DNA from: Oscillospiraceae bacterium | GTDB taxonomy: Bacteria > Bacillota > Clostridia > Oscillospirales > Ruminococcaceae | DNA: 64,000 nt | NCBI GenBank assembly: GCA_015067025.1 | Contig: SVNC01000008.1 | Location: forward strand, 62,001 to 126,000 | Direction of reading: 5' to 3' | Shown here: one piece after another, positions 51,044 through 53,822 of the stretch | Layout of the letters: every line of letters starts with the position of its first letter | Position numbering within the stretch: position 1 is the first letter of the stretch | The notes under the pieces: model-generated | The model's database searches: none | Told to the model about the DNA's origin: nothing | What the model saw: the letters and a program-made list of their open reading frames with translations, nothing else | Position numbers and translations under genes: made by a program

Positions 51044-51724
51044 ATGATATGGTGCGTTGAAGACGATGCAAGTATCCGTGATATAGAGGTTTATGCCCTG
51101 CAGTCAACGGGGTTTGAAGCGAAAGGCTTTGAGGACGGGGACAGCTTTTTGTCTGCACTGAAAAATGAGCTCCCCAACCTTGTAATTCTTGATGTAATGC
51201 TCCCCGGTACAGATGGTATCGAGGTGCTTAAAATTCTCAAAAGCACGGCAGAATATGTGGATATTCCCGTTATTATGGCAACTGCAAAGGGTGCGGAATT
51301 TGATAAGGTGCAGGGACTTGATCTGGGTGCCGACGATTATCTTGTAAAGCCTTTCGGAATGATGGAAATGATTTCAAGAGTAAAGGCGGTAATGCGCCGA
51401 TGCACACCTAAAACGGTAAACCGCATTTTACAATCAGGCGGACTTTCCGTTAATCTTGATGAACGTACCGTGACGATAAATGGCGAGAAGATTTCTCTTA
51501 CATACAAGGAATTTGAACTACTCTCGCTTTTTATGAAAAACGTGGGGCGTGTCTTTTCAAGGGATACTCTCTATAACGAGATATGGGGAGAGGACTATAT
51601 CGGCGAAACAAGAACAGTTGATATGCACATAAGAACGCTTCGTCAGAAGCTTCTTCAGTACGGCGAAATGATTGAAACTGTACGCCACGTGGGTTACAAG
51701 TTCGGAGGCACCTATGACAAGTAA
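51044..51724 (+). CDS. phoB: Response regulator PhoB/PhoP (OmpR family)
   Basis: A 226-residue regulator with a receiver domain (acidic EDD near the start, phosphoacceptor Asp in NLVILDVMLPG, Lys in VKPFG) and an OmpR-type winged-helix DNA-binding domain (LTYKEFELLSLFMKNVGRVFSRDTLYNEIWG...RTVDMHIRTLR). MIWCVEDD at 51044 is the start, with CAAAGGGGTTG upstream; the longer open frame passes through repeat B. It probably binds the Pho boxes before pstS. Its end overlaps phoR by 11 bp. Confidence 0.93.
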   Translation: MIWCVEDDASIRDIEVYALQSTGFEAKGFEDGDSFLSALKNELPNLVILDVMLPGTDGIEVLKILKSTAEYVDIPVIMATAKGAEFDKVQGLDLGADDYLVKPFGMMEMISRVKAVMRRCTPKTVNRILQSGGLSVNLDERTVTINGEKISLTYKEFELLSLFMKNVGRVFSRDTLYNEIWGEDYIGETRTVDMHIRTLRQKLLQYGEMIETVRHVGYKFGGTYDK

Positions 51725-53438
51725 GATATTTCGTTCTATTTTCGCCACCTCTCTTATTGTGCTTCTGGCAACTCTTGCGATAATAACAACGTTTCTGTAC
51801 AGTTACTTCACAAATATTCAGATAGATCAGCTTAAAGACGAGCTTTCCATTGCTTCTGTGGGTACGGAAAAATCGGGTAAGGAATATCTTGAAGGACTGA
51901 GATCCGATAACTTCCGACTCACCTGGGTAGCAAATGACGGAACGGTGCTTTTCGATTCGCAGGCTGACAAAGCGACAATGGACAATCACCTTGACCGTGA
52001 GGAAATAAAAGAAGCCTTTGAAACAGGAAAAGGCAGTAGCTCACGCCGTTCCGCAACGCTTACAGAAAAAACGCTTTATGAAGCGGTGCTTCTTTCTGAT
52101 GGAACGGTGCTTCGTATTTCGGTAAACCGTGCAAGCGGATTTGTACTGCTTTTGGGAATGGCGTATCCCGTCGTTATCGTGATCATAATCGCAGTTGTTG
52201 TTTCGGCTGTGCTTGCACATAAGATGTCAAAAAGGATAATCGAACCGCTGAATAAGCTTGACCTTGATAATCCTACCGAGAATGACGCTTATGAGGAGAT
52301 CGCTCCGTTACTTAGCCGTATTCATAAGCAGAATATGAAGATCGAGCGTAAGGCGGCAGAGCTTAACCGCAGAAAAGAGGAGTTTGAGCTTATTACAAAG
52401 AATATGCGTGAGGGACTTATTCTGCTTGACAAAAACAGAAGCATTCTCACCATAAATTCGGCGGCAATGACAATTTTCGGTACAGATGAAAATTGTGTTG
52501 GCAATGAATTTCTGACGATAAACCGCAGACACGAAATAACCTCTGCAATCGAAAAGGCTCTTACAGACGGACACGCTGAAATCCGTGCAAGTCTTAACGA
52601 AAAGGAATATCAGTTTGACATAAGCCGTATTGAAACTAACGGAGAAACAGTCGGTGCGGTAATCCTTGCATTTGATATAACAGAGCAGGCTGACGCTGAA
52701 AGACTGCGCAGAGAGTTCACGGCGAACGTTTCTCACGAGCTTAAAACTCCGCTTCAGACTATTACAGGCAGTGCGGAGCTTATAGAAAACGGCCTTGTAA
52801 AGCAAGAGGATATGCCACGCTTTGTAGGTCATATCAGAGAGGAAGCAACACGCCTTGTAATGCTTGTTGAAGATATTATCAGACTCTCACAGCTTGATGA
52901 ACAGACGGAGCTTCCGAAAGAAACTGTTTCACTTTACGACATTGCAAACGAAGCCTGCAAAGTTCTTTCTGACAGCGCAGATAAAAAGGGTATTACGCTT
53001 TCAGTATCAGGCGACGGCGGAAGTGTCTGCGGCGTAAAGCATCTGCTTTTCGAGGTCATCTACAATCTTTGCGATAATAGTATCAAATATACTCCCGACG
53101 GCGGCAAGGTCAAGGTCGATATTTCAGAAACGGGAAAAGAGGTAACACTCACAGTTTCCGATAACGGAATAGGCATCGCTCCCGAACACCTGCCGAGAAT
53201 TTTTGAACGCTTTTACCGTGTGGATAAGAGCCATTCAAAGAAGTCAGGTGCAGACACGACGTCTGCTCGGTTGCACCAAAAGGGCGGCACGGACGCCGTC
53301 CGACACAGCGCAACCGGTGGAACAGGTCTCGGGCTTTCTATCGTTAAACACTCTGTTCAGTACCACGGCGGAAAGATTTCAATTCAGAGCGAGGAGAATA
53401 AGGGGACTGTCATTACGGTGGTATTGCCGAAAAAATGA
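51714..53438 (+). CDS. phoR: Sensor histidine kinase PhoR with an in-frame insertion
   Basis: A 574-residue membrane kinase: two transmembrane helices (about 9-31 and 146-170) flanking an extracytoplasmic sensor loop, a PAS-like domain (about 222-325), HisKA with phosphoacceptor His341 in VSHELKTP, and HATPase_c with N box (NLCDNSIKYTPDGG), G1 (DNGIGI), F box (FERFYRVDKSHSKK) and G2 (TGGTGLGLSIVKH). Between the F and G2 boxes, residues 511-533 are an extra 23-residue segment coded by a 69-bp GC-rich palindromic insert (53244-53312). The start at 51714 follows TCGGAGGC within phoB. The kinase should phosphorylate PhoB when phosphate is scarce, if the insert is tolerated. Confidence 0.92.
   Translation: MTSKIFRSIFATSLIVLLATLAIITTFLYSYFTNIQIDQLKDELSIASVGTEKSGKEYLEGLRSDNFRLTWVANDGTVLFDSQADKATMDNHLDREEIKEAFETGKGSSSRRSATLTEKTLYEAVLLSDGTVLRISVNRASGFVLLLGMAYPVVIVIIIAVVVSAVLAHKMSKRIIEPLNKLDLDNPTENDAYEEIAPLLSRIHKQNMKIERKAAELNRRKEEFELITKNMREGLILLDKNRSILTINSAAMTIFGTDENCVGNEFLTINRRHEITSAIEKALTDGHAEIRASLNEKEYQFDISRIETNGETVGAVILAFDITEQADAERLRREFTANVSHELKTPLQTITGSAELIENGLVKQEDMPRFVGHIREEATRLVMLVEDIIRLSQLDEQTELPKETVSLYDIANEACKVLSDSADKKGITLSVSGDGGSVCGVKHLLFEVIYNLCDNSIKYTPDGGKVKVDISETGKEVTLTVSDNGIGIAPEHLPRIFERFYRVDKSHSKKSGADTTSARLHQKGGTDAVRHSATGGTGLGLSIVKHSVQYHGGKISIQSEENKGTVITVVLPKK
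53244..53312 (+). repeat. Palindromic in-frame insertion in phoR
   Basis: 69 bp with 45 G/C (65 %), well above its surroundings. It can form GCAGAC-ACGAC-GTCTGC (53250-53266), CGGAC-GCC-GTCCG (53290-53302) and a long-range CGGTTGC (53268-53274) / GCAACCG (53310-53316). Removing it leaves ...SHSKK-TGGTGLGLS..., the normal kinase sequence. Confidence 0.75.
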
Positions 53439-53492
53439 ATAACAAAAGCAGCAAGGGATTTTGATATGTACCCCAAAGTTTAGACAGAATTA

Positions 53493-53567
53493 TTAAATAA
53501 TATGAAAATGAGTTCGGTATTGCACCGGGCTCATTTTTAGTCTAGAAGAAATTCTTTCGTTATCAGT
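53493..53567 (-). pseudogene. IS3-type transposase OrfB C-terminal remnant
   Basis: In another minus-strand frame: TDNERISSRLKMSPVQYRTH followed by FHII and a stop. NERxxxxLKxMSPVQYRxH is the invariant C-terminal end of IS3-family OrfB. The DDE catalytic core is absent. Confidence 0.85.
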
Positions 53568-53689
53568 CAATCATCCCAATATTTGCGGATTGTTTCATTG
53601 TATCCTAATTTGTGTTCTCGCATATCCATTATAACAGATATTTTAAATTCTAGCGAGTAGCTTTTGTTTTTTCTTCCTGTTTTGCCCAT
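53567..53689 (-). pseudogene. IS3-type transposase OrfA remnant
   Basis: From the ATG at 53689: MGKTGRKNKSYSLEFKISVI, then MDMREHKLGYNETIRKYWDD and a stop. SLEFKxxVIxDM...GYxExxRKYW is the beginning of the OrfA helix-turn-helix. The rest of OrfA is deleted. Confidence 0.8.
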
Positions 53690-53822
53690 AAAAATATGCG
53701 CCTCCAAAAGTGTCTAACTTTTGGGGTGCATATCATTTTCCTTGCTGATTTTTCTCTTCTGTAAATGACGTTTCTTCGTGAAATACAGTAACTTTGTAAT
53801 GGTAGGTTTGCGTAACTGTATG

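Follow-up and report, generated by a model that had tools for sequence, protein, structure and literature searches.

A palindromic insert in the ATP lid of PhoR

A phoR-type histidine kinase gene (51714..53438, + strand) in the window, the whole 64,000-nucleotide stretch of Oscillospiraceae DNA analysed here, carries 23 codons in its ATP lid that call for an explanation: where did they come from, and do they matter to the kinase? In the list of open reading frames the gene lies directly 3′ of a phoP-type response regulator; the names phoP and phoR are our own assignment, made from sequence and gene order. The start codon is probably the ATG at 51714, and the product contains HisKA (PF00512, E 1.1e-15) and HATPase_c (PF02518, E 3.2e-31) domains according to Pfam. 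In the lid, SHSKK-SG is followed by 23 residues and then by GTGLGLS, so that the extra residues separate the F box (SHSKK) from the G2 box (GTGLGLS).

The original prediction read these codons as a GC-rich palindromic element inserted in frame at 53244..53312. The GC content it gave (65 %) agrees with the 65.2% measured over that interval, vs 45% over phoR as a whole and 40% over the window, and the interval is in the right codon register. As the bounds of the element, however, these positions do not hold: the real core is 67 nt long and lies at 53250..53316 (+), starting six bases further downstream. A covariance-model search of the window returned this core as its single match (66.5 bits), with an E-value of 4.3e-14 that arises partly by construction because one of the model's 15 rows was built on the phoR copy. 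The palindromic fold is strong at 53250-53316 (-34.3 kcal/mol, z = -4.5, 0/500 shuffles as good), with only 3 of 2780 67-mers sampled from the window folding as well, and is unremarkable at 53244-53312 (z = -1.6, 12/200 shuffles as good).

The fold comprises two hairpins and a stem enclosing the second, all on the + strand. Hairpin A (53250..53266, helix 1 of the family structure) has a 6-bp stem, GCAGAC/GTCTGC, and the loop ACGAC. One base after it begins the 9-bp outer stem (helix 2), whose 5′ arm CGGTTGCAC at 53268..53276 pairs, but for one A:C mismatch, with the 3′ arm GCGCAACCG at 53308..53316, the latter assigned from sequence as well as fold. Enclosed by it, between the internal loops CAAAA and GACACA, is hairpin B (53282..53301, helix 3, assigned from the fold and the loop tables), with a 7-bp stem GGGCGGC/GCCGTCC and the loop ACGGAC. 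The terminal CGGTTGC/GCAACCG pairing noted previously is therefore real, with its 3′ arm (53310-53316) extending past the end at 53312 that had been proposed for the element.

The insertion site and its empty allele

Of the 71 genomes searched, 30 contributed their best PhoR-like match to a comparison of thirty loci (L004-L033). The insert is present in two of them, that of the window's genome and that of G033, whose PhoR shares 96% protein identity with it. The other 28 lack it, which confirms the 23 codons as extra, and no alignable segment was seen in these orthologues. The nearest insert-free PhoR is that of G026 (89% identical over residues 1-510), where the empty site reads SHSKKSGGTGLGLS. 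Comparison of PhoR with and without the insert, as had been proposed, gives a net difference of 69 bp between the filled gene and that of G026. It also indicates a possible target duplication of 2-3 bp (GT or GGT), with its left copy at 53248..53249 (+, GT) and its right copy at 53317-53318, the exact ends being ambiguous.

Other features of these loci were observed. The insert-free phoR of G026 (L006) contains a TAG codon in frame, 5′ of the part encoding the lid. In the window, just 3′ of phoR and inside an apparent terminator hairpin, 53464-53733 is occupied by a short element with inverted ends (ATATGTACCCC... / ATATGCACCCC...). With a 40-codon frame that has no Pfam match, it is probably what remains of an insertion sequence. 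Neither end is present at the G033 locus, for which 1.5 kb of sequence downstream of phoR was available.

A dispersed family in related gut and rumen bacteria

When the 69-base query was searched by BLAST against its own genome no second full copy was found, the two matches being of 17 and 22 bases (E 0.94). Counting the one in phoR, a covariance model recovered 5 copies there at E <= 0.01, and 6 when the threshold was relaxed to E <= 1. Thus there are four to five further copies, and BLAST alone would have led to the wrong conclusion that the sequence is unique. The family is missed by BLAST because the stems have been rewritten while the fold was kept, a warning that sequence searches can overlook such a family even in the window's own genome, where a structure-aware model finds its copies.

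Related genomes, sampled as one per species and mostly drafts, contain hundreds of copies. BLAST matched 10 of 199 of them at E <= 0.01, several of these being chance matches in unrelated genes, and a 101-base query recovered a distant relative in G037 whose loops are of the same kind but whose stems differ. A 15-base core pattern gave 44 matches in 12 of the 71 genomes of the genus, and 2 when reversed; at three of the 44 places (in G025, G030 and G069) the remainder of the fold is missing. With a descriptor written by hand, 21 matches with both hairpins were obtained, vs none in a threefold length of shuffled sequence, although at least one of the 21 (L052) is a simple repeat and no copy. 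A stricter descriptor recovered 108 copies vs none in shuffled and none in reversed sequence.

The covariance model, with at most the best 72 candidates per genome scored, found at least 1056 matches at E <= 0.01 in 35 of the 71 genus genomes, with 5-71 matches per carrier. The other 36 genomes gave no match and act as a negative control. The model's E-values are rough, and its first version held one composite row. With a refined model, 67 matches were found at E <= 0.001 in G001, which is a single contig. The distinct cores are 64-69 nt long in 157 of 168 cases.

The element seems to be rare beyond the genus, as judged from the best 13 candidates scored per genome. In this search 8 of 394 genomes of the order had matches at the threshold of E <= 1e-4, and 6 of these 8 belong to the genus. 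G407, from another genus of the same family, carries 7 matches; a weak 42-nt match in G284 is probably due to chance. A wider scan of contigs with one pattern gave 10 stretches, all in two MAGs, and the one-pattern scan of viral contigs gave none. Plasmids gave four weak partial matches, from other lineages.

Conservation of the fold

Pairing in the family was assessed on two alignments, both of which lean towards the model because they were fitted to it. In the first (56 distinct rows) standard pairs fill 97.3% of pair cells, double changes occur at 20 of 21 pairs and the covariation score is 0.761, vs 0.153 when shuffled and at most 0.118 with the partners slid. In the second (83 distinct rows, drawn mainly from G001, G002, G060 and G031) 97.8% of pairs are formed, 19 of 21 pairs have changed on both sides and the score is 0.837 vs 0.199 shuffled; two of its five measures are weaker, its number of double-change pairs and its number of pair types being reached in 28 of 500 shuffles. 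G-U pairs make up 37 of 3443 cells (1.07%).

Rfam was searched with 26 loci containing copies, and at gathering score one pemK RNA and one tRNA were found, neither on the element. At phoR there was no match up to E 5, and permissive scans gave sub-threshold matches only. The pemK RNA motif (RF02913, 67.5 bits; L036:1637-1717) lies in G037, 73 bases after an element copy.

Genomic context

The surroundings of 212 copies were classified, with genes called as long ORFs only; 56 copies near contig or locus edges were left unclassified and 7 were counted as genic. Copies lie between convergent genes more often than between divergent ones (55 vs 16, p 4e-6). Between tandem genes 45 are in sense and 33 in antisense orientation (p 0.21), and thus there is no significant strand bias. 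The lack of such a bias, the scarcity of G-U pairs and stems that have been rewritten as whole perfect palindromes together point to a DNA element that is recognised as a fold.

In-frame insertion in other genes

Reading frames were screened in 210 unique copies, and 45 frames passed a loose filter. Most of these look like spurious frames over intergenic copies, and in L070 and L040, which we take to be linked to secA and deoA respectively, the copy lies upstream of the likely start and not inside the gene. By inspection and Pfam, four genic sites were recognised among the 210 copies, in PhoR, a methionyl-tRNA synthetase, a TraG/VirB4-like ATPase and a CHC2 protein. Most copies are outside genes, and in-frame insertion is therefore rare.

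The methionyl-tRNA synthetase of G060 carries the element in frame, and a 69-bp gap is found in 7/7 other genomes aligned at the DNA level (15 others had a match). In the TraG/VirB4-like ATPase of G407 and G510 the element is again in frame, opposite a 69-bp gap in 6/6 other aligned homologues; this alignment leaves out L306, which was unalignable, and the loci of G506, G511 and G496. Moreover, G407 contains both a filled and an empty ATPase paralogue (L297 and L308, C4 and C10) that are 97% identical. What looks like a fourth case is the CHC2 zinc-finger gene of G002, which has the element in the opposite orientation and a gap in 5/5 homologues of 36-45% identity. Flanking duplicates are GT or GGT at phoR and GG or GGY at the ATPase, and the ends are blurred at the methionyl-tRNA synthetase. 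Distinct cores have on average 4.3 of 6 frames open vs 2.96 in shuffles, and in-frame survival will therefore have been helped.

The suggestion that an in-frame palindromic element comparable to those of Rickettsia exists in Clostridia is thus borne out by the empty site, the family and the further in-frame cases in unrelated genes. The natural filled and empty alleles of PhoR, the methionyl-tRNA synthetase and a conjugation-type ATPase make tolerance in essential and signalling proteins, as well as movement of the element, directly testable, and the two ATPase paralogues of G407 form a natural pair for a test of tolerance.

Origin of the insert and alternative explanations

We consider it probable (roughly 0.82) that the 69-bp insert arose from a non-autonomous palindromic element of ~66-67 nt that is dispersed in many copies, one of which inserted in phoR with the frame kept and gave rise to a 23-residue loop in the lid. 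The element folds as hairpin A followed by the 9-bp outer stem enclosing hairpin B, and would have entered phoR before the two sister species that carry it diverged. The reading frame probably survived because the element and the probable 2-3 bp target duplication add exactly 69 bp and because the element has few stop codons. Copies may move as folded single-stranded DNA, or as cruciforms, with the conserved loops recognised by an enzyme supplied in trans, and the loop in the lid would simply be tolerated. The copy differences seen are between species, one genome having been sampled per species.

No mobilising enzyme was found in the carriers. The Y1 transposase domain PF01797 occurs in 13/35 carriers vs 7/36 non-carriers (p 0.12). 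A Y1 (RAYT) transposase was rejected as the driver, PF01797 being undetected in the copy-rich genomes G002, G024 and G037 (99% complete) and in others.

Two readings turn on the loops, which were compared with the CsrA/RsmE consensus. Among 172 distinct copies, CA(N)GGANG (the first N being optional) is found in hairpin A of 136 and in hairpin B of 117, and the GGA sits in a CANGGANG context, as in CsrA-binding RNA. The element could then be a CsrA/RsmE-binding RNA module, its dispersed copies being CsrA sponges or CsrA sites in mRNAs, with the phoR mRNA having gained such sites. This would fit with the presence of csrA (PF02599) in 30/35 carrier genomes, with a sub-threshold PrrB/RsmZ match (18.9 bits vs a gathering score of 44) and with G070, a carrier with no detected csrA in which hairpin A is without GGA in 5/5 distinct copies, although hairpin B keeps it in 5/5, so that the fit is to one hairpin only and the copies are too few to decide. 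However, csrA is also present in 25/36 non-carriers (association p 0.16), and PF02599 is missing from 5/35 carriers, three of which (G023, G047 and G070) are 90-98% complete. Moreover, GGA is absent from hairpin A in 34/172 and from hairpin B in 51/172 distinct copies, most non-fitting loops lacking one G, and hairpin A of the phoR copy is among those that do not fit. Almost no G-U pairs, no significant strand bias and the decay of the phoR copy (see below) also count against an RNA module, which we regard as improbable. Unlikely too, if somewhat less remote, is a selfish element read through its fold. Here a host protein that binds RNA or DNA, be it a regulator of the CsrA type or a recombinase not yet described, would read the loops, and this would hold the CA(N)GGAYG loops and CAAA linkers constant while the stems could be rewritten as complete perfect palindromes. 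If CsrA were that reader, each insertion, that in phoR included, would put Csr-type sites into a transcript, and the family would rewire or buffer a global regulator.

The remaining alternatives concern PhoR itself. It had been suggested that the insert could tune the kinase, in which case it would be kept for a changed PhoR activity brought about by a longer ATP lid. Its position in the lid, the frame held open in both species and the strong purifying selection on the rest of PhoR would agree with this. Nevertheless, between the window's genome and G033 the 23 inserted codons differ by 4 nonsynonymous changes and 1 synonymous change (pN 0.080, pS 0.053), vs 19.5 nonsynonymous and 75.5 synonymous in the other 548 codons (pN 0.016, pS 0.194; Fisher p 0.0099, with counts truncated to whole numbers and only five changes on the side of the insert). 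On these few changes, nonsynonymous change in the inserted codons is at least as fast as synonymous change and selection on them is relaxed, with no sign of the purifying selection seen elsewhere in the gene. Furthermore, the palindrome is decaying: the A:C mismatch in the outer stem of the window's copy is absent in G033, whose copy has two other mismatches. The same kind of element also occurs in unrelated proteins. Tuning therefore finds no support and we hold it to be decidedly improbable; the insert looks like a tolerated, fossil insertion that has not been selected. Ordinary variation in lid length, or a local duplication with no repeat family involved, would sit well with the failure of BLAST to find another full copy in the genome. 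This very improbable reading is refuted by the family search, given the covariance match at E 4.3e-14 (partly by construction) and the other copies found by structure in the same genome. That the insert is an assembly artefact might be entertained for draft genomes, yet the insert occupies the same codon position in both of the separate genomes that have it, the two copies showing 5 differences, and the second genome refutes this reading, leaving a negligible probability.

Comparison with known repeats

REP elements are short, intergenic, hairpin-forming, biased towards 3′ ends and sometimes tandem, and the dispersed element favoured here resembles REP/REPIN sequences with their RAYT transposases in all of these respects. 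It differs in its longer, two-hairpin core and in that PF01797 is undetected in the copy-rich G037, G002 and G024. With CsrB/RsmZ-type RNAs and CsrA sites it shares the CA(N)GGA(N)G hairpin loops, but unlike those RNAs it is dispersed in many copies, has no significant strand bias and has no Rfam match at gathering score in the 26 loci searched.

Bacterial MITEs (ERIC, RUP, Correia, BOX) are likewise dispersed and encode no gene, and some of them give in-frame fusions (PMC10969869); here the target duplication is at most 2-3 bp and ambiguous. The closest parallel is offered by the RPE. The accessible portions of two reports describe these as short hairpin-forming repeats of 105-146 bp, both intergenic and fused in frame inside conserved protein genes, with one RPE-bearing enzyme staying active (PMC10969869, PMC2229807). 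Judging by their titles, related reports concern Wolbachia and Methanocaldococcus. The present element is similarly palindromic, present in many copies per genome, both genic and intergenic, found in frame in unrelated conserved protein genes, and tolerated. In contrast, at 66-67 nt it is about half as long as an RPE, it consists of two hairpins and an outer stem, in which the loops are conserved and the stems covary freely, it is found in Clostridia, and its in-gene copies are a small minority. Judged by these descriptions of RPE, it would work like RPE but is best viewed as a shorter and different family, set apart by length, architecture and host lineage, and we would not class it as an RPE itself. 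No such family in Clostridia was among the literature matches listed, in a search outside which most subscription papers fell. According to the available text of a 2024 review, MITEs give in-frame fusions, RPE do so unusually often, and a similar change of proteins is conceivable in other prokaryotes (PMC10969869); the family described here provides a case of this in Clostridia.

Arrays and larger repeats

Copies are also found in tandem arrays, with four cores ~160 bp apart in G031 (L275) and three cores 67 bp apart in G022 (L107). The same core can occur inside different larger repeats within one genome, as it does in G037. Other copies in the window's genome (G000) and G033 (L118-L143, core 1501-1566) lie inside a larger repeat of ~311-341 bp at transcription terminators. 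In 11 of the 17 copies examined, each flank of this repeat carries a copy of the terminator hairpin (21-27 bp, ungapped test). In four further copies the ends were missed by the ungapped test or the match is split by an indel, and alignment suggests that some of them fit. Two copies, L138 and L143, have unlike flanks, as would be seen after recombination between copies.
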